From Liolophura sinensis (lineage: Eukaryota > Mollusca > Polyplacophora > Chitonida > Chitonidae), in the NCBI RefSeq assembly GCF_032854445.1, contig NC_088302.1, positions 56,396,237-56,460,236 on the forward strand: a stretch of 64,000 nt of DNA, written 5' to 3'. Below, one piece after another: positions 10,777 through 46,700 of the stretch (positions within the stretch are counted from its first letter, which is position 1; each line of letters opens with the position of its first letter). Made by a program: the position numbers and the translations under genes. The notes below the pieces were generated by a model. It ran no database searches. It worked only from the letters and a program-made list of their open reading frames with translations, and was not told the DNA's origin.

Positions 10777-10833
10777 TCTTACATGCTTGGATAGGGCGAT
10801 CAGATCTTTTTCTGCTCTTTGCCATTCCTGTAG

Positions 10834-19900: not shown

Positions 19901-22900
19901 TAGCTAACAGACAGATGTTGTAGTTAGGCCGTGGTTGTTGTGGTCAAGAGGCGGATGTTGTAACCAGGTGGTGGTTGTTGTAACCAAGAGGCGGATGTTG
20001 TAGTTAGGCCGTGGTTGTTGTGGTCAAGAGGCGGATGTTGTAACCAGGCCGTGATTGTTGTAGCTAACAGACGGATGTTGTAGTTAGGCCGTGGTTGTTG
20101 TGGTCAAGAGGCGGATGCTGTAACCAGGCCGTGGTTGTTGTAGCTAACAGACGGATGTTATAGTTAGGCCGTGGTTGTTGTTGTCAAGAGGCGGATGTTG
20201 TAACCAGGCCGTGATTGTTGTAGCTAACAGACGGATGTTGTAGTTAGGCCGTGGTTGTTGTGGTCGAGAGACGGATGTTGTAACCAGGCCGTGATTGTTG
20301 TAGCTAACAGACGGATGTTGTATTTAGGCCGTGGTTGTTGTCAACAAGAGACGGATGTTGAAACCAGGTGGTGGTTGTTGTAACCAAGAGGCGGATGTTG
20401 TAGTTAGGCCGTGGTTGTTGTGGTCAAGAGGCGGATGTTGTAACCAGGCCGTGGTTGTTGTAACTAATAGGCGGATGTTGTAACCAGGCAGTGGTTGCTG
20501 TAACTAAGAGGCGAATGTTGTAACCAGGCCGTGGTTGTTGTAACTAAGAAGCGAATGTTGTAATCAGGCCGTGATTGTTGTAACTAAGAGGCGGATGTAC
20601 TAAAAAGGCCGTGGTTGTTGACAAATTCCCTGTCAAATAATACGTCAATGTTTTATTGTGTGTTTTTATTGTTGCCCTCTCGCTGTGAGTTCAAGTACAG
20701 CTTATGCTGGCTTCCTCTGCAGCCGTAAGTGGGAAGGTCTGACAGCAACCTGCGGATGGTCGTGGGTTTCCCCCGGGCTGTGCCCGGTTTCCTCCCACCA
20801 TAATGCTGGCCGTCGTCGTATGTGTGAGATATTCTTGAGTACGGCGTAAAACACCAATCAATAAATAAATAAATATTGTTGCTCTCATAGATCAAACGGA
20901 TCCTCGGTGATCAGTACAACTGTACCAGACACGATCACATCCTGGGTGGCTAGCGCATTCGCCATTAACCATAACAGCGGATTGGGTGTGTCTCCAACGA
21001 CAGCTAAGGTATACAAACCATCAGGATTGAGTCTGTTGTTATTTCCAGTATATGGTACTTATATCTCAAGACAACAAAATTTCGTGTAGGCCTACATGAA
21101 AATGTGTGTTACTCATCACTCATGTTACGTCAATCGTCAGTCGTGTAGACCTATATTCTGTGTGTCCCATTTGTATACATAATGTGTGTGTTACAGACAG
21201 GCAAATCGTCAGTAGTGTAGACCTATATTCTCTGTGTGCCATTTGTATACATAGTCTCTGTGTTATTGATAGGTAAATCGTCAGCCCTGAAGACCTATAT
21301 CATCTGTAGACCCATTTTTATACATAAGTTTGCGTGTTGCAAATTGGCAAATCATCGGTCATGCAGACCTACATTCTCTGTGTGACATTTGTGTACATAG
21401 TGTGTGTGGTACTGATAGGCAAATCGTCAGCCGTAAAGACCTATTTTCTATGAGTGCCATTTGTATACATAGTGTGTGTGTTACTGATAGGCAAATCGTC
21501 AGTCGTGTAGACCTATTTTCTATGAGTGCCATTTGTATACATAGTATGTGTGTTACTGATAGGCAAATTCTCAGTCGTGGAGACCTATAATCTGCGTTTG
21601 CCATTTGTATACATAGTGTGTGTTACTGATAGGCAGATCGTCAGTATTGTAGACCTATGTACTCCGTGTGCCATTTGTATACATAGTGTGTGTTACTGAT
21701 AGGCAGATCGTCAGTATTGTAGACTTATATTCTCCATGTGACATTTGTATACATAGTCTGTTTGTTACTGATAGGCAAATCGTCAGTCGTGTAGACCTAT
21801 ATTCTCTGTGTGCCTTTTGTATACATAATGTGTGTGTTACTGATAGGCAAATCGTCAGTAGTGTAGACCTATATTCTCCGTGTGCCGTTTGTATACATAG
21901 TGTGTGTGTGTTGCGGATAGGCAAATCGTCACTCGTGTACACCTATATTCTCTGTGTGCCGTTTATATACATAGTGTTACTGATAGGCAAATCGTCAGTC
22001 GTGTAGACCTATTTTCTATGAGTGCCGTTTGTATACATAGTGTGTGTGTTACTGATAGGCAAATCGTCAGTAGTGTAGACTTATATTCTCCGTGTGACAT
22101 TTATATACATAGTCTGTGTGTTATTGATAGGTAAATCGTCAGTCGTGTAGACCTATGTTCTCCGAGTGCCATTTGTATACATAGTATGTCTGTTACTGAC
22201 AGGCAAATCGTCAGTCGTGTAGACCTATGTACTCCGTGTGCCATTTGTATACATAGTATGTGTGTTACTGATGGGCAAATCCTCAGCTGTGTAGACCTAT
22301 ATTCTCCGTGTGCCATTTGTATACATAGCCCGTGTGTTACTGATAGGCAAATCCTCAGTCGTGAAGACCTATAATCTGCGTTTGCCATTTGTATACATAG
22401 TGTATGTTACTGATAGGCAAATAGTCAGTAGTGTAGACTCTGTGTGACATTTGTATACATAGTCTGTGTGTTATTGATAGGCAAATCCTCAGTCCTGCAG
22501 ACCTATATTCTCTGTGTGCCATTTGTATACATAGTCTGTGTGTTGCTGATAGGCAAATCCTCAGTCGTGTAGACCTATATTCTCCGTTTGCCATTTGTAT
22601 ACATAGCCTGTGTGTTACTGATAGGCAAATCGTCAGTCGTTGAAATTGGAGGGGGGAGGGGGTCAAACCAAGCCCGACATGCATGTGTGTGTCACTAAAG
22701 AATCAACCAAAACATTTACTGTAGGTTTGCCCAAGTCATAGGCAAGTATGATTCTGAAAATGTGGACGGTCCTAAATGACACACATGGGAAGAGCATAAG
22801 AAAAAAAGGCCATTGAAAAGATGCTGGGAGCTGAATGAACCGACTAACTGGACAGTCTTGCGCCTAGAATATCTTCAGTGGCAACCATAGATATAAAACA

Positions 22901-25900
22901 AGGCCCACCCACCTTAAGAGTGTGATATACACTTGTGTAAAAAAGCTAAACCGGCCGCCATTAAAATACAATGGAAAAGGAATTAAGTGAATCAGACTCC
23001 AGGCTTAAAGTGAATACAATAATGCAAACTTTACATACAGCGTACTAACTCAACAAGGGAAAATGACTGTTCAATTATATATTTTTACGCGCTAAAAATG
23101 AAATCATTAGAAATATTAACCAGCATACTTTTTATTTTTGTCAACAGCTACAGGCTTTCCGGCCTTTCTTTGTCAGTATGAATCTCCCGTATTCGGTTGT
23201 TCGGGGAGAACAAGTCGCGTTGGAGGCCATGGTGTTCAACTACATGACAACAGATATGCAGGTGAAGTTTTGGAGAGATTAAACCAATCATATGTACCTT
23301 TTGTTGCTTACTTACCGTTTTACTTAAACTAAAGCTCAAGTAAAGCAAACACAAATATAAACACTTAATGTAATTTTAATCCCACGTTTAATTAAACCTC
23401 ATACACTGCTCAGAATCCACACTGTTCCAGTTGTCATGTAAGAAAGCAATAATACAAATTCTTTTGACATGAGTTATGAACGTTTTTAGACGTCTACATC
23501 ACCGTTGGTTTAAAAAGTATGGAACCTATGGGGCATGAGTATACAAATATATGAAACATACTTCGCCCATGGCGTCGCTGTACACTTCTGCTGCAAATTA
23601 AAGTGATAGGCGCACAATACTCAACTTTTATTATTGAAATATAGGGTTTGAAATACCTTAATTGACATCTCCACATCTTAAGCTTTTAGTAGGTTTTGAA
23701 ATATTTCACTTTACACTAGATATCTTAAGTTAGAATGTTGTCTCACAGTTTCGAACTACGTTTCAACAAAATCTATAGATAAGGTTTCAAGGTGACCTAA
23801 CACCTTAACAAAACGAGAGTTTAAGCAAGAACTAACCATTTGCCTTTCATATCTAGTGTGTGTGAAAGGACAGACAGTCATGTGCCTACAGCTGTTCGAC
23901 CATAAAAAGAGATATCAGTCCGGGATTTAGGTGTTTCAAAAACACGTCTGGATGTAGGAATGCAGATAAAATCAAATATGCGAAACCAACAATGATGAGA
24001 TTTATCATCACACAATGAAGCACAATGTTGACAATGAGGCATCAACTTTTCAATCCATTTCATGCTAGACCTAATTTAACACCTTTCTATAGTTTAACGC
24101 CTCAGACCATGGATGTTCTAAACGTTATCAAAAACTATCGGAAAATAATAAAATATTCGTCATACTTAGATCCTTTAATGTAATTTTTAAAGGACGATTG
24201 TTTAAGCTGAGCTTTATTTCTATCACAAAGATTTTTTCTAATATTTAATACTGTTAGACATGTAAAAAAATTCAATGAATGTGGAGAATTGTTTACTCTG
24301 TAGGTTGTGGTCACTCTGGAGAAATCTGCCTCCTACCGGAACCTGGTCAAAGATCAGACTGGAAATATGATGGCAACTTCTGCTCCTCAGACTCAAACCA
24401 TACACGTAAGAACAGAATACCGGTTTCTCAGTCATATCATAGTATAGGGGGCAACTGTCCCATAGAGAATAGCCATGACGCAGAACCCCAATATAGACCT
24501 TCCTATGTAACGATGGATGGAATATTTGTGGTACTGTAGGTATCATGACATTCGCGATCTTCTCCCAGTTGAATCTCTTGTTTATTAAACTCTTTCTTTT
24601 AAACAGAATAAAGTTTAAAAGTAATGCCTGTTAAGACTAAGTCTGACTTAGGCTAAGACAGCTCCTTGGTTGTGTGGTCTTATTGTGTAGGACATTAGCA
24701 TATCCTCATACTGCACAATGTCCTTGTCATACTGCCGCATCACGGACGAACTCTCATCTCCATGTTACAGATCAAGGCAGGTGATGCCAAGTCTGTGCAT
24801 TTCCCCATCATACCCGCTGTCCTGGGCCAGATAGAGATCACAATCAGAGCTCAGTCCACAGTGGCTGCCGATGCTGTCCAGAGAATGCTCCTGGTCGAAG
24901 TCAGTTTACTAAATGCTCAACATATCTATATGAACGCTTTTTATCCTAACTGATGGGTATTACATATTTATCATGAGAGCTATCCTGCTGTATGGTGACG
25001 ACAGATAAACACGCAGGCCGCCGTATTGTACTAGCAGCTTTCTTATAATAGCAACACTTTGTCTCAAATTGCATGTACATATTCCCAATGACAGCTAACT
25101 TATTGTACTAGTGAAAATCTACATCAAAGGTTTTGTGGCTGTTCCTGGCTCTGTCAACAGTGACGTGACGCATCACTTTCGTTTCCAGCCAGAAGGTGTG
25201 ACAACTTATTGTACTAGTGAAAATCTACATCAAAGCTTTTGTGGCTGCTCCTGGCTCTGTCAATAGTGACGTGACGCATCACTTTCGTTTCCAGCCAGAA
25301 GGTGTGACAACTTATTGTACTAGTGAAAATCTACATCAAAGCTTTTGTGGCTGCTCCTGGCTCTGTCAACAGTGACGTGACGCATCACTTTCGTTTCCAG
25401 CCAGAAGGTGTGACAACTTATTGTACTAGTGAAAATCTACATCAAAGGTTTTGTGGCTGCTCCTGGCTCTGTCAATAGTGACGTGACGCATCACTTTCGT
25501 TTCCAGCCAGAAGGTGTGACAACTTATTGTACTAGTGAAAATCTACATCAAAGGTTTTGTGGCTGCTCCTGGCTCTGTCAATAGTGACGTGACGCATCAC
25601 TTTCGTTTCCAGGCAGAAGGTGTCCCTCGAGAGTACAACCACGCCGTACTGGTAGATCTCACCCACAACTCGTCATTCTCCAAGGTCGTCCCCATCTCCT
25701 TCCCACCCAGCACCGTGTACGGGTCTCAGCACATCAGGGTCTCGGCTGTCGGTAAGTTCTTGGTGACTGATTAATGGACCAACGATAATTGTCTGCTTTT
25801 TGTCATCATTCGGTGACTTAAGCGCATCAATGGTTTGATCGATAAGCTTTATTCTAGCTAATATTAAGATAAGTCACCTGCTTGGAGTATTTGTGATTAC

Positions 25901-28900
25901 AAAAAAACGATCCTTAATTCTCTGAATCTGTCATTCTCGCCAAGAGGCTGTGTACAGAATGTCCCATTTCGCCATCAATTGTTATATTTATTTATTTATT
26001 TGATTGGTGTTTTACGCCATACTCAAGAATATCTCACTCATACGACGGCGGTCAGCATTATGGTTGGAGGGGAACTGGGCATAGCCCGAAGGAAACCCAC
26101 GACTATCCGCAGGTTGCAGGCAGACCTTCTCACGTACGGCCGGAGAAAACGAACTGGACTTGAACTCACAGAGACCGCATCGGTGAGAGGCTGCTGGATC
26201 ATTACGCTGCGCTATCGCGCTAACCGACTGATTACCGGTTAAAGGCGTTGTCCATTTGTTGTTTAACCAAATGTAGGAACAGTTTCTCCTGGCGATCACT
26301 GTCATTACGCTTTGGCAGAAGTATATTATCTTGTCACTTAGCTCTGGAATGTCTGGTACCGTCTATTCATTCACAGCTGTTTATTATAAAAGGCTCCTAT
26401 TTTTAAAAAGATTGCTCGCTATTTGCAAGATTGCATGACATTACATTTGCGTGATTCCCAAGGAAACTTGGCCACGGAGAAACTGGCTGGGTACGTGACA
26501 GATAAAAACTGTTTTCAGCGATGTTGAGGAAACGTAGAAGATATTCTTAGACATATTTGTCGCCCCAAAGCAAACATGTGTATCATTCATACGTTAGTTA
26601 GTGCTGTAGAATAAACAACAACAAATTAATTTACCTGAGCGTATTTTGTGTTTTCCGACCGACAGGCGATCTGATGGGACCAACAATCCATGGCTTGGAC
26701 AGTTTGCTGAGGATGCCTACCGGCTGTGGAGAACAGACCATGTTGAATTTCGCTCCTGACATTTTTGTCTCGAAGTACTTGTCCTCCACTCAGCAGCTGA
26801 CGGGCGCACTCAGACAGAAAGCGCTAGGTTTACTTGAAAAGGGTAAAGTGTACTTATACCACCATTGTCAAGGTTGAGATCAAACAAATGCTGAATACTG
26901 CACACCTTAAATAGCAAGAAAGTATCCTTATGTAATGTACCATGCCCAATGACATAAACGTAGCGAAATGTAGATGACAGATAAAATATTATTTCTGTAA
27001 TAGAATTCTTTAATATAATTTATTTTCAGGATAAGCGAGCCTAGTATGGTAAATCGGTGATGGTTTCTGTAGACAATGTTTTGTTGTTACTACATTTTTA
27101 CCTATTAGGGTATCAGCGGGAACTGACCTATCAACATAAGGATGGATCCTTCAGCGCTTTTGGTGACCGGGACAGCTCAGGAAGCATGTGGTCAGTAAAC
27201 TCATTCACTTGACAAACTGACGATTCCATACATGTCTGTCCAGATTTCTTAATTTCTTGTAAGTGACATCAAATGATCTGCTCTTGGCTTCTTTCTTTTT
27301 CATGACGTTTAGAATTAATACTCTGTCTGTTCACAGGCTAACGGCATTCGTGATCAAGTCTTTCCATCAAGCTAAACCGTTTATCTTTGTGGACGACGCG
27401 ACTCTTGTCAAAGCCATCACGTGGATTCTGAGCCATCAGAAGTCAGACGGCTCGTTCCCAGAGCCGGGCAGGATCATACATAAGAACATGCAGGTGAACG
27501 CGCGTGTGTAAGATGTACAGTTGTGCGGTGAAACATGCGTGTGCTGTGTTGTAGATTGGATAGTGTGCACCTATGAAGGTAAACATGCGTGCGTAGTGTT
27601 GTATGTTAGAAGATGTGCAGTTATGCAGGTGAACATGCGTGCGTAATGTTGTATGTTAGGTGTGCAGTTATGCAGGTAAACATGCGTGCGAAGTGTTGTA
27701 TGTTAGACCATGTGCAGTGTTATATGTTAGGTATCCAGTTATACAGGTGAACATGCGTGCGCAGTGTTGTATGTTAGGTATGCAGCTATGCAGGTAAACA
27801 TTCGTGCGCAGTGTTGTATGTTGGAAGATGTGAAGTGATACAGGTAAACATGCGTGCGCAATGTTCTACGTTAGACGGCGTGCAATTATGCAGGTAAACA
27901 TACGTGCGCAGTGTTCTATATTTGAAGGTGTGGAGTTATGTAGGTAAACATGAGTGCGTAGTGTTGTATGTTAGAAGGTGTGCAGTTGTGCAGGTGAACA
28001 TGCGTGCGTAGTGTTGTATGTTAGAAGTTATGCAGGTAAACATGCGTGCGTAGTGTTGTATGTTAGAAGGTGCGAAGTGTTCTATGTTAGAAGATGTGGA
28101 GTGATGCAGTTAAGCATGCGTGCGAAGTGTTCTATGTTAGAAGATTTGCAGTTATGCAGGTAAACAGGCGTGCGTAGTGTTGTACGTTAGAGGATGTGCA
28201 GTTATGCAGGTAAACCTGAGTGCGCAGTGTTGTATGTTAGAAGATGTGAAGTTATGCAGGTGAGCATGCGTGCGTAGTGTTGTATGTTAGAAGGTGTGCA
28301 GTTACACAGGTAAACATGAGTGCGCAGTGTTGTATGTTAGAGGGTGTGCAGTTATGCAGGTAAACCTGAGTGCGTAGTGTTGTATGTTAGAAGATGTGAA
28401 GTTATGCAGGTAAACATGCGTGCGTAGTGTTGTATGTTAGAAGGTGTGCAGCTACACAGGTAAACATGCGTGCGCAGTGTTGTATGTTAGGTTTGCAGTT
28501 ACACAGGTAAACATGCGTGCGTATTGTTGTATGTTAGAAGATGTGCAGTTGTGCAGGTGAACATGCGTGCGTAGTGATGCATGTTAGGTGTGCAGCTATG
28601 TAGGTAAACATGCGTGCGTAGTGTTGTATGTTAGAGGATGTGCGGTTATGCAGGTAAACATGAGTGCGAAGTGTTCTATGTTAGAAGATGTGCAGTGATG
28701 CTGGTAAACATGCGTGCGTAGTGTTGTATGTTAGGTGTGCAGTTATGCAGGTAAACATGCGTGCGCAGTGTTATATGTTAGAAGATGTGTAGTTATGCAG
28801 GTGAACATGCGTGCGGAGGGTTGTATGTTAGGTATGCAGTTATGCAGGTGAACATGCGTGCGGAGGGTTGTATGTTAGAACATGTGCAGTTGTGGAGGTA

Positions 28901-31900
28901 AACATGCGTGCGAAGTGTTGTATGTTAGATATGCAGTTATGCAGGTGAACATGCGTGCGAAGTGTTGTATGTTAGATATGCAGTTATGCAGGTGAACATG
29001 CGTGCGTAGTGTTGTATGTTAGGTATGCAGTTATGCAGGTAAACATGCGTGCGCAGTGTTGTATGTTAGAAGATGTGCAGTTATGGAGGTAAACATGCGT
29101 GCGCAGTGTTGTATGTTAGAAGATGTGCAGTTATGCAGGTAAACATGCGTGCGTAGTGTTGTATGTTAGAAGATGTGCAGTTATGCAGGTAAACATGCGT
29201 GCGCAGTGTTGTATGTTAGAAGATGTGCAGTTATGCAGGTGAACATGCGTGCGCAGTGCTGTATGTTAGAAGATGTGCAGTTATGCAGGTAAACATGCGT
29301 GCGTAGTGTTGTAAGGCTGTTAAGTGTTGTAAGGTAGATAGTGTACAGTAATACTTGGAAGCACAATTTGTGTGTGTTAAGTTGTGTATCTGTCATGTCA
29401 TTTTCAGAAATGGGCTGCATTCTCAAATAAATAGTACCTGATAATCATCACCCATATGAGCTAATAGAAACATTGTTGTGCAATTTGTTACTAGGGAGGT
29501 TCGGCTTCTGGCGTGGCTTTGACCTCATTTGTCCTCATCTCTCTGCTGGAGAACAGTGATCTGGACAATGTAAGTACAGGATCTATAGGGATAAAGTGTA
29601 AGTACAGGATCTACAGGGACAAACTGTGATCTGTACAGTGTAAGTACAGGATCGATAGGGACAAAGTGTGATCTGGACAGTGTAAGTACAGGATATATAA
29701 TGACAAACTGTGATGTGTACTGTGTAAGTACGGGATCTATAGGGACAAAGTGTAAGTACAGGATCTGTAGGGACAAAGTGTGATGTGGACAGAGTAAGTA
29801 CAGAATCGATAGGGACAAACTGTGATCTGGACTGTGTAAGTACAGGATCTATAAAGACAAACTGTGATCTGGACGGTGTAAGTACAGGATCTACAACTGT
29901 CTAGTTTAGTTATATGTCTTATCCAGGCTCTGAGGGTCAAGATCTGCACCGATACAGTAGAGAACAGAGAATAACTGTCTAGTTTACCTGTATGTCTTGT
30001 TTACGCCATGGAGACCAGGATCTGCACCAATACAGTAGAGAACAGAGAATTACTGTCTAGTTTAGCTGTCTTATCTAGGCTGTGTAGACCAGGATCAGCG
30101 CTGCCACGGCAAGAGCAGCGTGAAACTGTCTAGTTTACCTGTATATCTCCCCTAGGCTGGTGAGACCAAGATCAGCACTGATACAGGCGAGATCACAGAG
30201 TAACTGTAGTTTAGCTGTATGTCTTATCTAGGCTGTGTAGACCAGGATCTGCACTGATACAGCAGAGACCAGAGAGTAACTGTCTTAGATTACCTGTATG
30301 TCTTATCTAGGCTGAGGGGACCAAGATCTGCACCAATACAGTAGGGAACAGAGAGTAACTGTATAGTTCAGCTGTATGTCTTATCTAGGCTGAGGAGACC
30401 AAAATCTGCACCAATACATTAGAGAACAGAGAGTAACTGTCTAGTTTGGCTGTATGTCTTATCTACGCTGAGGGGACCAAGATCTACACCAATACATTAG
30501 AGAACAGAGAGTAACTGTCTAGTTTACATATGTGTCTTATCTAGGCTGAGGGGACCAAGTTCTGCACCAATACATTAGAGAACAGAGAGTAACTGTCTAG
30601 TTTAGCTGTATGACTTATCTAGGCTGAGGGGACCAAGATCTGCACCAATACATTAGAGAACAGAGAGTAACTGTCTAGTTTAGCTGTATGACTTATCTAG
30701 GCTGAGGGGACCAAGATCTGCACCAATACATTAGAGAACAGAGAGTAACTGTCTAGTTTACCCGTATGTCGTATTTAGGCTGAGGGGACCAAGATCTGCA
30801 TCAATACATTAGAGAACAGAGAGTAACTGTCTTAGTTTACTTGTATGTCTTATCTAGGCTGAGGGGACCAAGATCTGCACCGATACATTAGAGAACAGAG
30901 AATATCTGTCTAGTTCAGCTGTATGTCTTATCTAGACTGTGTGGGGCAGGATCTGCACTGATACAGACGAGAACAGAGAGGAACTGTCTAGTTTAGCTGT
31001 ATGTCTTATCTAGGTTGAGGAGACCAAGATCTGCACTGATACATTAGAGAACAGAGAGTAACTGTCTAGTTTACCCGTATGTCGTATTTAGGCTGAGGGG
31101 ACCATGATCTGCACCAATACATTAGAGAACAGGGAGTAACTGTCTTAGTTTACTTGTATATCTTATCTAGGCTGAGGGGACCAAGATCTGCACCGATACA
31201 TTAGAGAACAGAGAATATCTGTGTAGTTCAGCTGTATGTCTTATCTAGACTGTGTGGAGCAGGATCTGCACCGATACATTAGAGAACAGAGAGTAACTGT
31301 CTAGTTCAGCTGTATGTCTTATCCAGGCTGGGGAGACCAGGATCTGCACCGATAGATTAGAGAACAGAGAGTAACTGTCTAGTTTAGCTGTATGTCTTAT
31401 CTAGGTTGAGGAGACCAAGATCTGCACCGATACATTAGAGAACAGAGAGTAACTGTCTAGTTTGGCTGTATGTCTTATCTAGTCTGTGGGGACCAAGATC
31501 TGTGCTGATACATTAGAGAACAGAGAGTAACTGTCTAGTTTAGCTGTATGTCTTATCTAGTCTGTGGGGACCAAGATCTGTGCTGATACATTAGACAGAG
31601 TGTAGCTGTCTAGTTCAGCTGTATGCTTTATGTAGGCTGTTCGGAACAAGATCTGCACCGATACATTAGAGAACAGAGAATAACTGTCTGGTTTAGCTGT
31701 CTTATATAGGCTGTGTAGACCAGGATCAGCGCTGCCACGGCAGGAGCAGGGTGAAACTGTCTAGTTTACCTGTATATCTCCCCTAGGCTGGTGAGACCAA
31801 GATCAGCACTGATACAGGCGAGATCACAGAGTAACTGTAGTTTACCTGGATGTCCTATCTAGGCTGTGGAGACCAAGATCTGCACCGATACAGTAGAGAA

Positions 31901-34900
31901 CAGAGAATATCTGTCTTAGTTTATCTGTATGTCTTATCTAGATTGTGTGGAGCAGGATCTGCACTGATACAGACGAGAACAGAGAGGAACTGTCTAGTTC
32001 AGCTGTATGTCTTATGTACGCTGTGGGAACCAAGATCTGCACCGATACAGACGAGAACAGAGAGTAACTGTCTAGTTTGGCTGTATGTCTTATCTAGGCT
32101 GAGGAGACCAGGATCTGCACCGATACAGACGAGAACAGAGAGTAACTGTCTAGTTCAGCTGTATGTCTTATCCAGGCTGGGGAGACCAGGATCTGCACCG
32201 ATAGATTAGAGAACAGAGAGTAACTGTCTAGTTTACCTGTATGTCTTATCTAGACTGTGTAGAGAGGATCTGCACTGATACAGACGAGAACAGAGAGGAA
32301 CTGTCTAGTTCAGCTGTATGTCCTATGTACGCTGTGGGAACCAAGATCTGCACCGATACATTAGAGAACAGAGAGTAACTGTCTAGTTTGGCTGTATGTC
32401 TTATCTAGGCTGAGGAGACCAAGATCTGCACCGATACATTAGAGAACAGAGAGTAACTGTCTAGTTTGGCTTTATGTCTTATCTAGGCTGTGGGGACCAA
32501 GATCTGTGCTGATACATTAGAGAACAGAGAGTAACTGTCTAGTTCAGCTGTATGTTTTATCTAGGCTGTTCGGAACAAGATCTGCACCGATACATTAGAG
32601 AACAGAGAATAACTGTCTGGTTTAGCTGTCTTATATAGGCTGTGTAGACCAGGATCAGTGCTGCCACGGCAAGAGCAGGGTGAAACTGTCTAGTTTACCT
32701 GTATGTCTCCCCTAGGCTAGTGGGACCAAGATCAGCTCTGGAACGGCCAAGAGCAAAGCGTAACTTTCTAGTTTACCTGTATATCTCCTCAAGGTGGCTG
32801 AGACCAAGATCAGCGCTGCCACGGCCAAGAGCAGAGAGTATCTGTCTAGTTAACCTGTATATCTCCCCTAGACTGTTGAGACCAAGATCAGCGCTGTCAC
32901 GGCGAAGAGCAGAGAGTATCTTTCTAGTTTACTGGTATATCTCCCGTAGACTGTTGAGACCAAGATCAGCGCTGTCATGGCGAAGAGCAGAGAGTATCTT
33001 TCTAGTTTACCTGTATATCTCCCCTAGACTGTTGAGACCAAGACCAGCTCTGCCACGGCCAAGGACAGAGAGTATCTTTCTAGTTTACCTGTATATCTCC
33101 CGTAGACTGTTGAGGCCAAGATCAGCGCTGCCACGGCCAAGAGCAGAGAATACCTGGAGAATGAGGTAAACCATATATCTGACGACTATACCATGGCCAT
33201 CACTACCTATGCTCTGATGTTAGCCAAGAGTTCCAGAGCCCAGTCCGCGCTCATGATGTTAAACCACGAGGCTGTGGTCAAAGGTTCGTACCTCAGTCCA
33301 GCCAATTTGTATTTGATTACTGTTTCATCCTGTCGAAGGAGATTATGCGGTCTGCTTTTGACACTTTAAAGTTCTCTTGGAATAAGATTAGTCGTTCATC
33401 CTAAAATATGGTATGGCATTTATTTTTCAATGATTTACTTTATCTCGGCTTTTCACCTGTTTGTTCATTATAACTAATTCATGTAAATGTTCATCAGATA
33501 TCGTCAAATGAAGACAAGAAATCCCTACAAGTATAAATAGCCGCCTATTTATTATGTTAAATGCGAGAGAAGGGCCCTAGCCTTTCAAAAAGTATCCTGA
33601 CCAAGACGAAACACCATTATATGATACTTCATTGATCTTCGTTCTTTGTTCTTCACCCTGAACAATGAAGCTTAACTAACATTGCTTTGTATAATTTAAG
33701 ATGGCACCAAACATTGGGAAGGTCCGATAGCCAGCAAAACAACAAACATTCGGAAGTTCTGGAGAGCTCCATCCAGACAATCTCCCGCTATTGCCATTGA
33801 AACCACTGCTTACGGACTACTTTCCTACGCCGAGAAGAGGGATCTGGTAGCCGGGTTGGACATCCTAAAATGGATCACTTCACAAAGGAATGCCCATGGT
33901 GGATTCTCTTCTACCCAGGTTACCGAAATTAATATACATAAAGATTTGAAGGTGGGAAAGGGACTTATATACAATTATATCAATGAGTGCGTCGCACGTG
34001 CGTTGTACATTTTATAAAGTTCCAAATGCAGATAATGCGAAAGCTGCCCTGTGTATGGAGAAATTTAAGAACAGATATCTTAGGCACCATGTCAATTATG
34101 ATCTCTGAAAATCTAAAATTTACAGATAAAGATGGAAAGGTGCATGGGCATGTCGACAATTTTTAGGCCATGAAAGTTAAAACGGTATGAAATGAACATT
34201 CCATTTTCTTGATTAAGGACACAGTTGTGGCTCTGCAGGCTCTGTCAGAATTCGCAGAGAAGATTTTCTCTCCTACCTTTGACGTCACGGTAAAGATTTC
34301 CGATGACGTCAATAAGCACAACTTCCGGATTCAGCGGGAAAACTCTCTGGTGTTCCAGACAGCTCAGGTGAGAATGGCACTTTCCTTAGCTGCAGTGATT
34401 CGTCGCGTCTCAGTGGCGCGTATAAAGCAAGACCAGTTTCAGGAGAAAATAACTGGACAAAGAAGAAAAACCGTTTATCAACACTTCAAAAACGAGTATG
34501 TTGTTAATTTAAAAAACTTACATTTACCCTCTTTGTCCAATTTTAACAGATGAACAACGTAAGTGATCACGTGACTGTCAGCGCAACAGGGAGTGGTATG
34601 GCACTGGTTCAGGTAAGATAATCAGTTATATTTAGAACATGTCACGATGGGCAGTTTTTGAGATCATAAACTACAGAAAAAGATTTCTTCTACTGCTTTC
34701 ACCGTCAACTAGTACTGGAATACATATGACGGTTGGTGGAGGAAATGTCGCCAAGTAATAAAGACAAGGTCAAGGTTAGTCGGTGACAGGGAAACGTGGG
34801 AAAAGTGTCCAGGGGTGGGTACCTCATGGAGCTTGTATAATGAAAGAACGATTTAATTAGTTCTCTGTAACAACACTGCACCTCGAACTCATGAAACCCT

Positions 34901-37900
34901 TATGGCACTAGGTCAATAAGGAGAACATTTCAATATCCATTAGAACTAACTGTAACCTACATTAGGTCATAATGAACACTATATACATAGACCAATATCA
35001 TTACCCATAACTTCCAAACTTTCTAAGCGGACAGGGTTCACTAAGATACAGTGATCCTTACTAAAATATCCATGGGTCCACAACAGTTTAACTACCTGCT
35101 CTATCCAAATGCTATACTAAACCAGTGTCTCACCAACACTACACACATCTGCATTACAGCTAAATCCTACTGAGTGTACATTCAGTTATCTCAAAAAAAT
35201 GAACATGTAGGCCTACAGTATACATGTTAACAATAAATGCATCATTATGCAATACAATGAATTGTATAGTCTCTTAATTTGAAATAATCATCAAATATTT
35301 GCACAAAATTACCTCACTGCTCATCATGCAGACTGATCAAATCTTCAAAGGCAGGCAGAATAATGCTGGTTACAGCTACAAGAGAACAAAAATGGCATCA
35401 TGAATGGCACACATATTTTCACAGTGTAGCGGTTTTTTTACAATGTACTCAGTAACATTACATAAAACCATATGTGACTAGTTCCACGCTTACAGGGAAC
35501 TAGTGTAACCAGCAATAGCAATTAAGTCAGCAAATTAAGAAAAGAAGTTTAATTCACTATGACACTATGGTAGTAGACAATGAAGCAAATGCAGGGTGTC
35601 GACTATTGACAGCGTTCTGATTCCCTGCACAGTCACAGCAATGGTAGCGTGTTCAAACACTCACAAAACCCCCAGCAGGTCTAGACCACCTGTAAATTTA
35701 ACAAATACTTCCAGGTCAGTCTCAGCTCATGCTATATTTACCGCTACATAATTCTTGGATCTACGCATTCATGACATTTTACAAGATTTCCCGCCGTCAA
35801 CAACACCTTTACAAGAGCAAACAAGTTCCAAACAACATTATCGCTCTCTCACTACACTTTGTCAATGAAATCCGATAATGACTCGCACCATGAACAGGTC
35901 ATTTCAAATATTACAATGGTGTTTAGAGCTAGACAAACTTGAAACACTAAGAAAATAACAAAACAACAAACCTTCAAACAGCAATCCGCAATATTGAATC
36001 GGCATCTTCCACGCGCACATGACCGGCACGGATAGCACAGTTGGTGAAGCGTCCGCTTCGGGACCGGTAAATCCAGGATCAATCCTTGATCGAGTCACAC
36101 CTAAGAGTTTAAAAGAGGAAGTTGTAACTTCCTCGCTTGGCGTTCATCATGAAGGGGATAGTGGAACGACTGGTTGACCCGTATCAGTAAAATGGCTCGG
36201 GCGGGTCGGCTTACTTGCCTTCGGTAAGTCGTCTCAGTGAAGCAGCACTAAATAAAAGAGCGGTGGAAATCCGTCCTGCAACAAGGAGGCACATTACACG
36301 TACATGCACCCTAGTGATTCCTTCGTCGTCATATGACTGAAAAATTGTTGAGTACGACGTTAAACCCCACTCACTCACTCACTCCACGCGCACATGTAAG
36401 AAGGGGAGGTAACTCCACATAATCATTGTGACTGCCTGTCTCATACAGGATAGAAATAAGAAAGTATTCATGAAGGGGAATTTGTTTCTGTGCAAGACTG
36501 AATAATGTACTGTATTTGCTTATAAATGGTCTACGGTGGCACCTAGAAAACAGAGAGACGCGGGACACCTGGTTCACATCCTCGGATCAGTCATTTTTAA
36601 ATGTCATTTCCCGATATACTGATTTCAAAATCCAGAAACAATCTTTCGCCTTGCTATCCGATTTGCTGTTTATGTAGGTGTCTGTAGACTACCACGTGGA
36701 GCAGGACGACACGGCGCCGTCGTTTGACGTACAGGTTAAGCTTTTACACGAAACCATGCACTCTGTCACCATCCAAGCATGCGCTCAGTAAGTGTAACAT
36801 TAGGCCTAACTTGTTTTCATTCAGTAGAGTTACACACTAATGTTGTAGAAGAAAACATTGCCATCTTGGAAGCTGTTCATGTTAATGGTGTCTATCGTCA
36901 ATATTAATTATAACTGTCCAGAGCGAAACTTTTGCACACAATGATTTTCATTTACACAAAGTCGTCTCTGAAAACCTTAACTTTCTTGTTTTTAAGAGTA
37001 TTATGGCTCTTAAGAATTAGTCCGGAAGCCGGTTAACGCCGTCATTGTACAGTCACTTCGCAGTATCGTTCCATAGCCTCGCAGTGTCGTTTCATCGCCT
37101 AGCAGTCTCGTTCCATCGCTGCGCCGTATCGTTCCATCGCCTCCAGTATCATTCCATTGCTTCGCACTATCGTTCCGTCGCGATCGCAGTATCGTTCCAT
37201 CACCCGACGATCAAACAATAGTATGATGGTATGATGACGGCCTTAACGGACTTCCACAGATTTAACCTACACTTCATGCTGCACACAACAATGAGTGCGA
37301 TGGTTGTTGCTACAGTTCACCGCCTAAAGCAGTGACTTTGATGGCTACTGTTTTCTCCCTTGATGATTAGGTGGCTACAAGAAGGTTCTAGTGGAATGGC
37401 GGTGGAGGAAATTGGCATCCCCACGGGCTTCCAGGCTGACAGAGATAACATCACCCTGGTGGATGGTCTGAAACGGATAGAAACCTCAGACAAAAAGCTC
37501 CTCCTCTACTTTGACGAGGTACCGTGTACAAGTACTGTATATCGGCATATATCCGTATGGAGGTATTTGTGGATGGAAAAACGGCAGCCCAACTAAATAT
37601 TTAAAAAAATTAAACTAAGTATGTTTTACTGAAAACTGTGTAAGGCTTTGAGAGATGGGCATATCTAACCATGAAACCCACGAGGTGAGTGCCCAAAGCC
37701 GGCCTTGAACATCGAATTCGAAGATTTTCATTGTACGTGGGCCCTTGCTACGTGGTCGAGAATGCAGTGCCTTAATAAAACCTAAATGATGTTGAACGGG
37801 ACATGACACCTTAAGAAATCAACCAAAGATATATGTATTGGCACATGGTTTATCCAATCAGATCTCGACGACACCCACGTGCATAACGGTCAGAGCGGAC

Positions 37901-38387: not shown

Positions 38388-38404
38388 ACCATAAACTAAT
38401 GGTA

Positions 38405-38817
38405 TATTTGTGGTTGAGCGGTTCATGGTTGGTTGACAGGTTCATTTGTTGTTGACAGGTTCATTTGTTGTTGACAGGTTCAAAGGTGGTTGAAAGGTTC
38501 ATTTGTGGTTGACAGATTCATTTGTTCATGGGCCCATGGGTGGTTGGCACGTTTATGGACTGTTGACAGGCTCATGGGTGGTTGACTGGTTCATGGGTTG
38601 TTGACTTGTTCATGGGTTGTTGGCTTGTTCATGGATGGCTGACAGGTTAATGGACTGTAGACAGGCTCATGGGTGATTGGCAGGTTCATGGGTTGTTGAC
38701 AAGTTTGTGGGTAGTTGACTGGTTCCTGAGTGGTTGACTGGATCATGGGTGGTTGACAGGTTTATGGACTGTTGACAGGCCCATGGGTGATTGGCAGGTT
38801 CATGGGTGGTTGACAGG
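38405..38817. repeat. About 20-bp imperfect tandem repeats
   Basis: Loose repeats of GGTTCATGGGTGGTTGACAG, starting 18 bp after the TEP stop codon and so probably within its 3' untranslated region. Confidence 0.9.
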
Positions 38818-39309
38818 TGCAGTTGAAATCGGACAGCGCACAGAGGAAACCCCCATGCCTTACCAAATAACTAATCAGTTTAACCTACAAGTACAAAATA
38901 ACGTCAACTTAGCGAAAGTATATCAGTGGTCATTAAGTAGCTTAAAGGCTTGTTCGCCTGTGCTAGAATAATGACTTCAACCACTTACCATAACCCATTG
39001 AAGAATGACATTGTACTGTACATTTACAACATACTTTCACATTTTCAGAACTAACCCATTAATGGCCAAGGTGACCGCTTCCAGAAACTAATTATCATGT
39101 ACGTGGTGTAAAATTAAAGAAAATTATTTGTGTGAAGTTGAGCATTTAGCTTCGTTTGTTTATCCCATCTGGTCTCTGCGTCAAAGGTATAGTTTGATCG
39201 TCCTAAACACATGACTCACGAGGTGTGGATTATACTCTGGCATTGCACGGGAAATTTTAAGATTCCCTGACTCTCACTGTTAGGGGGTTTGGTGGCAATA
39301 CGCGGTCGA

Positions 39310-39608
39310 CAGCGCAAGTATGGCCGACGGCCGTAATGTGGCTGATTGCCCTAGTGTGGCTGAATGAGCTAATGTGGCTGAATGCGCTAGTGTGGCCAGT
39401 TGCACTGGTGTGGCCGATTGCACTGGTGTGGCCGACGGCGCTAGCGTGGTTGATTGCGCTAAAGTGACTCATTGCGCTGGTGGGCGACGGCACTGGTGTC
39501 GACGATTGCGCTAGTGTGGCCGACGGCGTTGATGTGGCCGGCTGTGCTAGTGTGGCTGCTTGCGACAGTGTGGCTGATTGCGCTAATGTGGCGGATTGCG
39601 CAATCTCA
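39310..39608. repeat. 18-bp GC-rich tandem repeat (about 16 copies)
   Basis: Copies of GCGCTAGTGTGGCTGATT and variants. The unit length is a multiple of three, so short Ala/Ser/Thr- and Val/Ala/Asp-rich frames are open on both strands; these are by-products. Confidence 0.92.
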
Positions 39609-40236
39609 CGATCGTCCATGACCACTGACTTCCACCAATATGGTGTGCATGTCTCTAGGTGGGAAAGTTCCTAAATAACTTGCCAAAGACAGATGTTTTA
39701 CCTCGTACACTGCAGGTTTATTCATCCATAAAAGTGACCGCCACCGTATAGGAAAGTACTGCGACAATCATTCTATGAATCTATCAATCAGTTCAACCAT
39801 GGAGGCATACATAGATTTCTATCGGAAATCAGAAGCTCCGAAAACCGAATCTGCTGCATGACAGAGGTATAACAAAGAAAAAAAGGTCTTTCCTCGGCAT
39901 CCAAAATGTGTGTCTGAAACCCTCCGATATGTGGCAACCCCTAAACCAGAGTGAGAAGAATTTGAGTGTCTGGATGGTTTTGCACTGATTCATTCGTCAG
40001 ACAGGAGAATCATGTCTGATAAATACTGGACTGGATGGCCTTGACATAGATTTGCGCGAGAATACGGGAATGTGAGAATATAATTAACTGTGGCAGTCTA
40101 TGTGTTGTAACATGCTGCATCACTGTAGCATAATTCCGGAGAACGGTGACAATTTCAAGTTCAGTCATATTTCAAGTTCATATTGGGCAACAGCTGGGAA
40201 TAGCACTAAAGGCAGGATAAAGACAACATACTGCAA

Positions 40237-40452
40237 GCCTGTGTTGCTGAGTGTTTAGCGCACTAGCGCAGCACAATGACTAGAGCCTCCCACTAAAGGG
40301 CTGAGTTCAAGTCCAGCTCATGCTGCCAGCCCCCTGCAGATGGTCGTTGGTTTTCCACGGGATCTGTTCGGTTTCCTGCCGCCATTATACTCGCCGCCAT
40401 CGTACACACACATGCACGTGAAATATTCTTGAGTGTGGCGTAAAACACGTTC
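40237..40452 (+). mobile_element. SINE-A copy, diverged
   Basis: Head GTGTTTAGCGCACTAGCGCA, B box GAGTTCAAGTCCAGC, centre GCAGATGGTCGTTGG, tail TATTCTTGAGTGTGGCGTAA. Internal deletion of the CTTCCTCT-GTACGTGGG part and no A-rich tail. Confidence 0.85.
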
Positions 40453-41406
40453 TACCTTACTGGTCTTAATGCACTGCTATATTCATGAAAAGGCAAACGT
40501 AATAAAATACTGTTTAATTCTTATAACGTATACAGAACTGTTATGGACGAAAACGTTTCTATCACAGGTAAATAACACTTCCTACAAACAGCATAAGATT
40601 TAAATTTCTTATTTAAAACAAATACATTCTTAAAAAAAATACAATGAACATTAACAAATTATATAATATTTTAGATATAGACATCACCTTGTCTTCGCAG
40701 TAATAAGGACAGGTTGTAAGGAAGACTCAGTTCTTGTACAATATGATAATTACTGCATAACAGAAACACGACTACACTGTAATGCCAGTTATTCAGATTG
40801 TATGATAGGACTTCTGAAGATTTCTGTTGATTACCAGACACCACGTCGTTGTAATCAGAAAGCCTTTCAAGTGACGACATTTATTCTCATGTTGGGTCAC
40901 AGCAAGAATTATCATATTTTGCATTAACCGTCTGGCAGAGCTAACCAGTCATAAGCGTCCATACTAACAGCTGGTGATAATGGACTTGCACTGGCTCATA
41001 ACAGAGTGCTGCCTTGCCTTCGTGCAAAGGATGGGGAAATACAGCACAGACGCGGCCATAACTGCAGCGACTTCATAAGCTGAAAGCCAAGGTTCCATAG
41101 AAAAACATAAAGTTCCAATGCATGGACGCTTGGGTATCACTCGTTTCTACCCTGATACCTCGACGTGCCAGGCTAATTGGTTTATACTTTAACATAATTC
41201 TTTTATGCGTTAAAATGGCGGTTAGGATCTCGTTCTTTGTGCGCTTTAACAAAGGACAAAAATAACACACAATTATCTCTTTCTAAATCAAAAGGTCGGG
41301 TAATTTAAAGCAAACTAATAGGTTTTAAAATAATCTCCAATGAAGAAAATCCTTGAGGGTGCACCAAAACGTAAAACATTAAATGAAATATTTAGAAATT
41401 AAATTC

Positions 41407-41412
41407 TTTATT
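41407..41412 (-). terminator. Candidate polyadenylation signal for OBI1
   Basis: AATAAA on the minus strand (TTTATT on plus), 47 bp beyond the OBI1 stop codon. It is the nearest consensus signal; others farther on (for example near 40873) cannot be excluded. Confidence 0.5.
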
Positions 41413-41458
41413 AGGTACAAAGTATGTTCTTAAATATTATGCTCCACAGGTTATGAAA

Positions 41459-43739
41459 CTAAAAACTAAGTTTGGATGATTTAACAGGACTGAAGGACAT
41501 ATCTGTGTCGTCAGTATCGGTCTCAAACAGCCGTTTCTTTGGCTCTGGGAGAAAAGACCCGTCCAACGTTGACACGTTTGAATTCATAGAAGAGTTTGAA
41601 ACGTAACTATAATTGTTGACTTTTTCTGAATGCAAATGACTTGACATTGGATGGGTTGACCCACTAGATATTATAGATTGAGAAAAGGAGACACTGGATT
41701 GTTCTGGTGCGGGATAACTGTTTGACTTAGCCAAGCCAGTCTGGTTTGTCCAATTCGAAAACCCTGCTTGCCCAGAACCCCTTGGCTGGAAACCATTGGT
41801 CGAATCATTGCTTTGACCATACAAGATACCGCTGCTAACAGGCACAGCTGATGTGTACGATAAAGGGGCTAAAGAAGTCGCTCCTGGTATATTGCTGATT
41901 GGGGGAGGTAAAGTCAAGGAGACTGTTGTGAAGCTCGGAAGATGACTTCCACTTGTGAAAGGTAATGCATTTAGGGAACTCAGTCCACCTGATGCAGATG
42001 GTAACGGTGGAGCAATGGCAGATGGTAACGGTGGGGCAATGGCGGATAGTGAATACGAGGAAGTTGATGTGATGTGGGGCTCACCAATACCAGAGATGAT
42101 AGCGCCAATCTGTGTGATAGCAGGGTAAGATGTTTGTCTAGGGACATGTGAGTTAGAGGCACGGTGTGCTGCTAGAGTCTGTTCCAATTTCCACAGTGAG
42201 GAGGTCAGCGAGTCGGTGCTCTTATTATTTGTCACGACAGACTGGCTGAGGGCAGATGTGGAGTCAAATGTGCCAGGCTGTGAGCTGCTGTCGATGGCTC
42301 CATGACACCTGTACACAGCATGGTTCACAGATGACGTGGATGGCTTTGACAAGGACTGAGAGAGAAGAAACGTTGCTGAATCCATGGAAGACTTGTGCCC
42401 AGGAGCAGAAGGTTGAGTAAACTGGGGAGTAGACCTCAGCACCTGGGAAACCACACTACCAGTTATACTGGTTTTATCACCAGTGAGCAGTGCACAAGAA
42501 ACACCAGCTGTGGTGCTCTCAGAGGACAGGTGTCTGTCAGTGGTAACTCTGTCTACTCCAGAGGCGGTATAATCACCTCTTAGACTGCTCCCAAATGATG
42601 AGGACGATTGGAGAGAAGTCGGTTTGTAACTGTCCAGTGATGCCGACAGACAACTTCTGGGGTCGACTGAGGATAAACCAGTGCTTCTTTGATCAGACAT
42701 GTGGGAGCTGACGATGTGTCCAACATGATTTGAGGAGAAAGTTTGATCGGAGAGTTCTGATGGTATCGTTTGGAAGTCATTTCTCGATGAAGCCAAGCTT
42801 TTGTTAGTTTGTTTTATGGATTTATTCTTAGTAGCTTTAACAACTGGTGACGGCTGTTCCAGAGGGGAATCTGCAGAGGGTTCTCCTCTTGCTCCTCCTC
42901 CCAAGGAATTTCGTTCTTGAACTTTCCGTTCAGCCATACTAAACAGTTTCATGCAGTCCCTGAGTTCAGGAGTAACAGAAATGTCTAATTCGTCCAGCTC
43001 ATTTTCAATATCTAGAGTATCATTTAAATCTTTTGACGATGATCTAATACCTTGCTCGGAGCTAGACTTGACAGACTCTTTTGCAGTGTTCGCCTTTCTT
43101 TCGGTAGAATATTTCTCTTCAGGCACATACTTAACAATTTCTTGTTGCTTCCGTTGGTTATCCGTAGCAAATTCTGCTGATGAAGATACCACAGTGCTTG
43201 GGGTAGTTTCCTTTGATTCTGGATCGTCTGTAGAGGACTGAGAAAATGGGCTAGGCATCTCAAGGTCAAAAGAGGACATTTTAGAATTAGGAGGGGTGTC
43301 TTCAGGCAGAGCAAAGCTCACCTTCTTAGAACCTTTAGTTGGAGAATTGAAAGGTTTTGTTGAATCTTTGCTATCGTTGTTGACTAGAATACCACTCACA
43401 CTTTTTGTTTCAAGAATTTTAGCTGTGTGTCTGCTCAAGCTCTCACCAGATGGCTGTGCAACAACAACAGCCCTCTTTACATCATCATAATCCATGAACA
43501 ATTTTTTCTTGTGACTTTGCTTTTCTACAGGTTTTGCCTGGAGTTCATCTGATGGCTGTTTTGGTTTACTATCTGAGCTCTTTCCTTCCTCGCTTTCAGT
43601 TCCTCTCAATTCAGAGAGCTCTTCCTCCAGTTCCTCGATGTAACCATCACTCTTCTGAAGAGCCTTGTTCAACTGGTGCACCTCTTTCTCATATGAGTCA
43701 ATCTGCGACTGAAGAGCTGCCACAGTAGAGCGACCATAC
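41459..43739 (-). CDS. OBI1 exon 6 (coiled-coil end and disordered tail)
   Basis: One base completing Arg, then 759 codons and TAG at 41459-41461. Starts YGRSTVAALQSQIDSYEKEV with the coiled coil to about ELEEELSELRG, followed by a Lys/Ser/Pro-rich region (HKKKLFMDYDDVKRAV near its start) and a long Ser/Thr/Pro tail with low-complexity stretches (SAIAPPLPSAIAPPLPSA). Acceptor catttag. An open frame extends upstream to 44080 through the intron array. Confidence 0.95.
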
Positions 43740-46700
43740 CTAAATGTATGAACAACACAGAGAAGATAAACTTCTACATTACTGATGAAGAGTGTATACG
43801 TTGGAAGTACATTGACAATGATTAGGCATACTGCAAGTGTGTATGTTGGAAGTACACTGACAATGATTAGGCATACTGCAGGTGTATACATTGGAAGTAC
43901 ACTGACAATAATTAGGCATACTGCAGGTGTATACGTTGGAAGTACACTGACAATGATTAGGCATACTGCAGGTGTATACTTTGGAAGTAAACTGACAATG
44001 ATTAGGCATACTGCAGGTGTATACGTTGGAAGTACACTGACAATGATTAGGCATACTGCAGGCACTCCAGTTTCCTCCATACATAGACCTCACTGCCATC
44101 TACACGTGTTAAATGCTTAAATACAGTGTAAATCACCTTTATTAAATAAATAAATATTATTATACATTACAATAGGTTTGCTGGTGAAACCAGAACACGT
44201 GTGCAAGTCAAGCCTCTGTACATGTATCTGGAACCTTCTCCTGCTATGCCTTTTGCATATTTTTGTTTAAACAGAACAGCATTATTGTTGTGAAGACTTC
44301 AACCTGAACATCTTGCCCTTCAAAGTATTATGAAGTATATAGTTTGCATCCAAAATTACGTCTTCTGTGTGTAAAATACGAGTGTTAGAAAACCATTCCA
44401 ACAATCCATTACAGAGACAAACCTGTGGGGTGACCTGCTGCATATCTCCATCCTCAATCGTTGATTCTCCCTAACCAACAATCCATTACAGAGACAAACC
44501 TGTGGGGTGACCTGCTGCATATCTCCATCCTCAGTCGTTGATTCTCCCTAACCAACAATCCATTACAGAGACAAACCTGTGGGGTGACCTGCTGCATATC
44601 TCCATCCTCAGTCGTTGATTCTCCCTAACCAACAATCCATTACAGAGACAAACCTGTGGGGTGACCTGCTGCATATCTCCATCCTCAGTCGTTGATTCTC
44701 CCTAACCAACAATCCATTACAGAGACAAACCTGTGGGGTGACCTGCTGCATATCTCCATCCTCAGTCGTTGATTCTCCCTAACCAACAATCCATTACAGA
44801 GACAAACCTGTGGGGTGACCTGCTGCATATCTCCATCCTCAATCGTTGATTCTCCCTAACCAACAAATCATTCTCCTCCTTCAATTCTTCATTGGCCTAC
44901 AAAGACATCATTTACTGAATAATTTTACACTGTGGCACACAATGATTATCTAACCCTAAACCCTCAACAATATTCAAGTTTGACTACATAGCTGAAATAT
45001 GAAATCAGTCATACTGTGCCACATGACCGTCCTGTACTTGGAGCAATGTTGGATCCCGGAGAGCCATTTTATCGTCATACTGTACAATAGCAGTTAAGGC
45101 AGGCAATTTTATATGCTAAAGAATTTGGGGGTGCTGCAGTGTGCATGGTTTGCTCGCCGCATTTCAAAAACTTACAGAGGACCACTCCAGGCCAGCTGAA
45201 ACTGTAAGTGTATCAAGGTCGTCCAATGCGGATTTTCAATACAACATGGACTTGTGTCATGTACAAAACACTTCACAATGACCCAATAGAATTTAAACAC
45301 ATACAGGACACACCTGCATCTGAGCATGTGATTGTCTAGGGCTGTCTGGTGATAAAAGCCAAAAGATATTTTCAAGAACAGTGAGCAGTGTTCCATCAAA
45401 AGTCAAATCACCTAGATGTCAGTCTAATTATTACAGTCAGAGAGTGTATAAATGGCAAGTCTGAACAGTGTGTACGGTTCAAACAGTCGCAGGAGCTACT
45501 TACATCATTGAATATGCCAAAAACATACACAAAATATTTAGCAATGACCTTTTTGAACTTGTTGACTTCTTGCTTGACTTTTTCATACTGTTTGTTGGCA
45601 TCTTCAAATTTTTTAGTAATCACTGCTAAAGCATCAATGTCTGGCTCTTTTATCTGAGGCACCGCATAGTTTTTCGCAGAAGCCTTAATTTCCAACTGTT
45701 GTTGTAAGGCTGTGTTTTCAACCTTGAGGGCTTCCATCTTTGCCTGTGTGCGGGACAACTCTAACTGTAAGCAGAAAACAAAAATGTAAACCAATCACTG
45801 ACTCAAAAACTTCATCAACTTTTTTGCTGATGACAAGTGACTGAGTTCATGCTTTACAGCTTATCAGCACACGTACTGGTGGTTCACATTTGGTGAGCAA
45901 TCATTTCTAGGAATGAATATGTCTATCTTCAGGTTTAGAAAAAATCCTCATATTATCCAAAACCCTGCATAAGAGCGAAGTACAGAGACATCAGACAGGG
46001 ATGAGCAACAAACCCAGGCTTTTATACTGAGTGTGGTACCAAGTCACAAGGTAGCCTATTACCTGGGATGTGGTAACTCATGCTACAACCCAGCCTACTA
46101 TCAGAGGTGTGGTAACTCATGCTACAACCCAGCCTACTATCAGAGGTGTGGTAATTCATGCTACAACCCAGCCTACTGTCAGAGGTCTGGTAACTCATGC
46201 TACAACCCAGCCTACTATCAGGGGTGTAATAACTTAAGCTACAACCCAGCCTACTATCAGAGGTGAGGTAACTCATGCTACAACCCAGCCTACTATCAGG
46301 GGTGGGGTCTCATGCTACAACTCAGCCTACTAGCAGGGGTGTGATAACTCAAGCTACAACCCAGCCTACTATCAGAGGTATGGTAACTCATGCTACAACC
46401 CAGCCTACTATTAGGGGTGGGGTAAGTCATGCTACAACCCAGCCTACTACCAGAGGTGTGGTAACTGATGCTACAACCCACCCTACTATCTTGGGTACGG
46501 TAACTAATGCTACAACCCAGCCTACTATCAGAGGTGAGGTAACTCATGCTACAACCCAGCCTACTATCAGGGGTGGGGTAACTCATGCTACAACCCTGCC
46601 TACTATCAGGGGTGGGGTAACTCATTCTACAACTCAGCCTACTTTCAGGGGTTCGGTAACTTATGCTACAACGCAGCCTACTATCAGAGGTGTGGTAAGT

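Follow-up and report, generated by a model that had tools for sequence, protein, structure and literature searches.

The 64,000 nucleotides analysed here (the window) correspond to C8:56396237-56460236 of the chiton Liolophura sinensis, whose genome of 609 Mb is assembled in 632 contigs. The plus strand of the window carries a CD109-like gene of the TEP family. Its 23 window exons join in one frame, free of stops, over 1071 amino acids, and CD109 chains are the best solved relatives of its protein. On the opposite strand lies a RING-finger gene (the RING finger is recognised by Pfam, which gives otherwise only weak matches) that we provisionally call OBI1-like. The introns of these genes contain many ordinary tandem arrays, and also several arrays whose repeat unit takes in the edge of an exon, its splice site, and the adjoining intron bases. 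The latter are the subject of this text. Tandem Repeats Finder (TRF) reports, at the same positions, all five of the arrays that a sequence-only reading of the window had described as copies of exon borders. The features concerned are as follows (window coordinates; a slash marks the splice junction):

10834..34612, plus strand: CD109-like TEP gene, 23 exons mapped in the window, single open frame
25097..25623, plus strand: 106-bp array, 4.9 copies, spanning the acceptor of TEP exon 15
25613..25751, plus strand: TEP exon 15, authentic acceptor CACTTTCGTTTCCAG/GC
27337..27493, plus strand: TEP exon 18
27494..29313, plus strand: 50-bp array, 36.2 copies, beginning at the donor of TEP exon 18
29495..29569, plus strand: TEP exon 19
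29552..29893, plus strand: 42/28-bp array, 8.0 copies of 42, spanning the donor of TEP exon 19
29570..33105, plus strand: TEP intron 19, made of the exon 19 donor array and, directly after it, the exon 20 acceptor array
29895..33149, plus strand: 78-bp array, 41.4 copies, spanning the acceptor of TEP exon 20
33106..33283, plus strand: TEP exon 20
44398..44866, minus strand: 77-bp array, 6.1 copies, spanning the donor of OBI1-like exon 5
44820..44896, minus strand: exon 5 of the OBI1-like RING-finger gene, donor CAG/GTCACC

The unit combines exon bases, a splice site, and intron bases at four of these boundaries. It consists of 92 intron bases and 14 bases past the AG at the exon 15 acceptor (10 of the first 11 bases past the AG being identical to exon 15), of 18 exon and 24 intron bases at the exon 19 donor, of about 46 exon and 32 intron bases at the exon 20 acceptor, and of 47 exon and 30 intron bases at the donor of OBI1-like exon 5. 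At exon 18 the unit has about 6 exon bases plus the donor region (16 of 18 matching), so that the array is better described as adjoining the junction than as copying an exon edge. A direct repeat of 7 bases, TTGTTGG, bounds the OBI1-like array, with one copy in exonic and the other in intronic sequence; the 77-base unit starts at the exonic copy and the array closes in the intronic one. This array holds ten copied CAG/GT sites, and exon 5 itself has a second in-frame donor, CAG/GTTTGT, 12 bases beyond the authentic CAG/GTCACC.

Junction copies were sought by sliding 14 exon plus 16 intron bases along the adjacent intron, with at least 9 exon matches required, at 321 boundaries of 12 genes: 10 TEP genes, the OBI1-like gene, and the third gene of the window, an SBF_like gene on the plus strand that is probably SLC10A7. 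Seven of the 321 boundaries reach at least 22/30, and the next best has 20. In the window these are the exon 15 acceptor (27/30), the exon 19 donor (28/30), the exon 20 acceptor (28/30), and the OBI1-like exon 5 donor (30/30). The others are the exon 19 donor (28/30) and exon 20 acceptor (27/30) of NB, a tandem paralog of the window TEP gene, and the exon 21 donor (29/30) of P8, another TEP paralog. No shuffle out of 6420 and no comparison with a wrong intron out of 1425 attains 22, although in an earlier run the best of 40 shuffles got to 22 at 2 of 287 boundaries. The exon 18 donor, with 18/30, is not distinguishable from shuffles. Hence, of the five arrays that had been read as copies of exon edges, those at exons 15, 19, and 20 and at OBI1-like exon 5 prove to be such copies (27-30/30), and the one at exon 18, with its few exon bases and negative junction test, is not. 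Both ends of introns are affected: the window has two cases at acceptors and two at donors, and two more donors are involved elsewhere.

The paralogs show how these arrays came and changed. NB, with 23 mapped exons at C8:56333273-56351247, ends about 56 kb before the first mapped exon of the window TEP gene. It has AG and GT at the corresponding edges in 22 of its 23 exons; the acceptor of exon 10 was not found at the extrapolated position. When exon 10 is omitted, its first part being out of register, NB and the window gene are 92.8% identical over 2985 exon bases and differ at 74 of 464 four-fold sites (with exon 10 included, identity is 89.9%). The 42-bp array of exon 19 is common to both genes, with 13 copies in NB versus 8 in the window, and so is the 78-bp array of exon 20, with 4 copies versus 41; instability of copy number is thus seen, between paralogs only. 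At exon 15, NB preserves the state without an array, the edge being present in a single copy at C8:56341442-56341480, and anything resembling the unit at its exon 18 amounts to no more than a single weak stretch (score 23, the maximum of 300 shuffles being 22). The donor-side and acceptor-side arrays of its intron 19 are separated by 502 other bases, which in part are similar to stretches of other TEP segments. Exon boundaries in NB and the other TEP paralogs coincide with those of the window gene wherever both can be mapped. The window TEP gene has its introns where the paralogs have theirs; no new intron is seen in it, and the duplications enlarge an existing one. NB apart, the TEP paralogs tested have no junction copies at the boundaries where the window has its arrays.

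Arrays of this kind are found at other boundaries and in an unrelated gene. P8, on C5, carries at its exon 21 donor a 41-bp array whose unit joins 33 exon bases to 8 intron bases. On C1, a myosin gene, the sole unrelated gene brought in and picked for its many exons within 9 kb, bears a 31-bp array, five copies of which match the donor junction at 26-28 of 30 bases. Arrays like these are thus present on at least three chromosomes. The same myosin segment (L036, C1:26641501-26650500) shows copies of a head exon in a row, at 758-806, 1184-1290, and 1787-1893, which are 84-88% identical between the aligned pieces and are probably alternative exons. The TEP paralog P5 (C8:17356001-17366000, minus strand) has a 56-bp minisatellite at its exon 18 donor, the same exon at which the window has the 50-bp array (27494-29313); in these two diverged paralogs, differing arrays start at this donor or at most 12 bases from it.

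A whole-genome search with a 353-nt string of the five units gives 99 matches, all of them inside the window arrays or at the corresponding boundaries of NB. This number is a lower bound, as very common words were skipped. The confinement of the units to these places, together with the unrepeated exon 15 edge of NB, indicates that the arrays grew in place. A dispersed satellite or mobile element was considered and rejected, the lower-bound search having found no unit copies beyond the window and the NB boundaries. The exon 20 array has 41 listed junction places, one of which is authentic. Agreement with the authentic edge is 45-53 of 58 bases in the five copies lying closest to it and 32-39 of 58 in the other 35 listed, with two exceptions at 45.

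We consider it likely that these arrays are junction minisatellites formed in place, of the kind that has been called mirages, and that they represent neutral growth of introns in which splicing keeps to the exon-proximal site. A short segment across an exon-intron junction would have been duplicated in tandem, in the OBI1-like gene apparently between the two 7-base direct repeats, whose presence in both exon and intron suggests that slippage, or end joining, took place at a short repeat. The array would then have grown and shrunk through the usual turnover of minisatellites. Such a duplication can survive because one intact splice site remains beside the exon. Exon definition has the spliceosome match the acceptor and donor that lie closest to each other across the exon, and as donor copies lie only downstream and acceptor copies only upstream of the exon, the nearest pair is the authentic one. 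The spliceosome would keep this outermost site, probably through exon definition, and the remainder would become intron. Seeding itself may be random along the gene, with hits in exon interiors lost and hits in introns or at junctions kept. The sequence-only reading remarked that the outermost site is in every case the authentic one; this is true, yet it is imposed by geometry, as a repeat that spans a junction leaves a coding copy at the end of the exon and would otherwise be called exonic.

The number of spanning arrays was compared with a null of random seeding. In this null each array was collapsed to one unit and placed randomly, though never wholly within an exon, and was taken as spanning when the placed unit takes in at least about 9 exon bases. 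The counts comprise 27 independent arrays from 11 of the 13 genes examined, with the two arrays common to NB counted once, split TRF rows merged by hand, and lengths for the nulls entered by hand. Arrays of period below 20, with fewer than 2.8 copies, or with a score below 120 were not counted; two arrays with incompletely mapped host introns (21 bp in P8, 24 bp in P9) were omitted, as was the window's first array, which is open at one end, and paralog exons whose splice sites could not be snapped were left out. In the myosin gene, exon edges were taken from the ends of Pfam matches, and a mapped splice site was used only at the array. Six of the 27 arrays span a junction. The null computed per host intron expects 4.5 (P 0.28), or 3.8 with the length of intron 19 that NB suggests (P 0.15), and the null with pooled introns expects 3.1 (P 0.08). 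When exon 18 is added as a seventh case, P becomes 0.13 and 0.06 per host intron and 0.03 pooled. Outside the window, 2 of 16 arrays span a junction versus 1.55 expected. Arrays that span an edge or start at most 25 bases from it are not in excess either (9 of 25 versus 6.4-7.7 expected, myosin not included). There is thus no clear excess in placement, and random seeding with loss of exonic hits suffices for the count. The impression that five cases in two genes exceed chance is not supported, and the companion suggestion, that duplications elsewhere are purged while those leaving one good splice site survive, fits these nulls. The clustering of several cases in the window may be explained in part by its density of repeats: TRF covers 45% of it (34% without the first array) versus 2-12% of six paralog segments, but arrays of at least 100 bases are distributed more evenly, at 2.7 per 10 kb versus 0.5-2.7 in the paralog segments.

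Several observations weigh against random seeding in place followed by neutral growth. In the window alone the pooled null expects 1.57 of 11 arrays to span a junction and 4 do (P 0.057), or 5 when exon 18 is included (P 0.012), P values that are affected by selection, the window having been chosen because of these arrays; a mild seeding bias at exon borders is possible. Three further arrays start 8-23 bases from a donor, at exons 2 and 17 of NB (the array at exon 2, which is NB's own, starts 8 bases past it) and at exon 18 of P5. The genome search missed the known, diverged exon 20 array of NB, so that diverged copies elsewhere would escape it too. At exons 15 and 19 the authentic site carries a base that is absent from its array copies and from NB and that raises its score. 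For exon 15, C is found in six of the other seven TEP genes compared, NB included, and the G of the window is therefore probably derived (although P5 shares it); at exon 19, the AAT of the window is shared by P7. These bases could reflect selection against use of the copies, two cases being too few to tell.

A seeding bias is the core of the rival that survives best, namely that tandem duplication here prefers exon borders, as at a hot spot linked, for example, to transcription or to splicing intermediates. The window-only P values speak for it, as do those of the 27 arrays with exon 18 included (0.03 pooled, 0.06-0.13 per host intron) and the different arrays that two diverged TEP paralogs bear at the exon 18 donor. 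Against it stand the arrays outside the window, where observation and expectation nearly agree, and the P of 0.15-0.28 for all arrays conditional on the host intron. We regard such a hot spot as improbable; the preferred start at exon borders proposed by the sequence-only reading is not shown, though one of modest strength may exist.

The second rival holds that the copied sites are retained as decoys with a regulatory role in how the TEP and OBI1-like genes are spliced or expressed. The arrays show no purging of the copied splice sites, which also fits neutral growth. Counting the authentic site of each array, AG is intact in 38 of 42 copies at exon 20 and 5 of 5 at exon 15, and GT in 8 of 8 at exon 19, 35 of 36 at exon 18, and 11 of 13 at exon 19 of NB. 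The other dinucleotides of the units have a mean intact fraction of 0.76-0.83 at exons 20, 19, and 18 and at NB exon 19, and of 0.98 at exon 15, and across these five arrays 13-94% of them are at least as intact as the splice dinucleotide. The splice dinucleotides are thus somewhat above average at window exons 20, 19, and 18 and slightly so at NB exon 19, as the decoy reading would have it, but they are no clear outlier, 13-59% of the others being as intact in these four arrays, and in the array of NB exon 2 GT is mostly lost. When sites are scored with a simple matrix built from these genes, those that equal or exceed the authentic one are 31 of 308 in the exon 18 array, 47 of 375 in that of exon 20, 9 of 54 at NB exon 19, and 6 of 34 in the OBI1-like array. 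These 6-47 strong sites favour decoys; against them, no array site scores as high as the authentic one at exon 19 (0 of 37) or exon 15 (0 of 27). The counts at NB exon 20 and NB exon 2 are 2 of 25 and 1 of 17. The claim that use of a decoy adds a stop, which also favours regulation, is correct for nearly all sites: the exceptions are 1 stop-free GT or AG among 745 scanned in the four TEP arrays of the window and 2 among 34 in the OBI1-like array, all three within 36 bases of the authentic site, and in the myosin array all four GTAAGT copies lead to a stop. Donor copies lie at the 5′ end of the intron and acceptor copies at its 3′ end, hence the copies alone cannot bracket an exon, and regulation through decoy exons finds no support. 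The absence of junction copies at these boundaries in the TEP paralogs tested other than NB further argues against a retained function, and we judge decoys to be very unlikely.

An assembly artefact is scarcely credible: minisatellites are prone to mis-assembly and HiFi coverage is just 14x (the report on the Liolophura japonica assembly gives 632 scaffolds, this coverage, and a mean HiFi read of 8.3 kb; PMC11068029), but the mean read is longer than the largest array (3.3 kb), two arrays recur in NB with other copy numbers and sequence variants, and the exon 20 copies have diverged in an ordered gradient.

Other repeats of the window were compared with exon edges as well. For the 66-, 40-, 72-, 39-, 45-, and 84-bp arrays such an origin was rejected, the intron boundaries remaining below 22/30 apart from OBI1-like exon 5. 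The 39-bp array lies in intron 3 of the OBI1-like gene (46053-49553, minus strand), has a period divisible by three, and is covered for the most part by a stop-free minus-strand frame of 1153 codons. The 50-bp array upstream of TEP exon 1, whose right end lies 55 bases before that exon, was likewise rejected, as no exon is recognised at its left flank. According to TRF, the 50-bp minisatellite directly upstream of the first mapped TEP exon measures about 43.6 kb, spanning window positions 1-10778 and C8:56363174-56396000 (37174-70000 of the NB segment) with 236 bases between the pieces unread, and its assembled length is uncertain at the HiFi coverage given above. Copies of a SINE-like (short interspersed element) sequence with a recurring core can be recognised by eye at 25990-26240, 17950-18150, 20690-20870, and 50240-50450. 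The donor of TEP exon 5, at 13304, is GC (CAG/GCAAAG), and NB has GT there (CAG/GTAAAG).

Mirages are documented in lancelets, in Adh3, the globins BflGb6 and BflGb9, PGBD5, and other genes, and regular splicing despite the copies is reported there (PMC3087553, PMC3902484). In the literature searched, junction-spanning minisatellites bear this name only in lancelets, the other uses of the word that were checked referring to a transposon or to a cited title. On sequence grounds the chiton arrays belong to the mirages, it being the conserved open frame that argues for regular splicing. What is new is their occurrence in a mollusc. The chiton case further differs from the lancelet ones in involving several genes on three chromosomes with up to about 41 copies, in having one intron that consists of a donor-side plus an acceptor-side array, and in being known from sequence alone. 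Tandem duplication of a segment with splice signals is also the basis of intron gain in the model of Rogers and in the RdRp case of potato, in which the duplicated segment is reported to cross an intron-exon boundary (PMC4974935). The TEP gene resembles these in the duplication and differs in that no new intron is seen in it. With ordinary intronic minisatellites the arrays share their local tandem arrangement and units of tens of bases; unlike them, their units contain coding bases and a splice site.

The six independent mirages in 13 mollusc genes suggest that this kind of array may be overlooked in repeat-rich animal genomes, where it would confuse gene prediction and enlarge introns. Mirages are also natural tests of splice-site choice, in which an exon faces many similar sites and correct reading is still required. 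We put forward only tentatively that chiton introns commonly grow, and are still growing, through mirages, as perhaps do those of many animals rich in minisatellites. If this were true, a noticeable share of introns would have been enlarged from their own splice junctions, as in the 3.5-kb intron composed of copies of its two ends. Some authentic sites would be under selection to outscore their copies, of which exons 15 and 19 give a hint, and position beside the exon would count for more in splice-site choice than strength.

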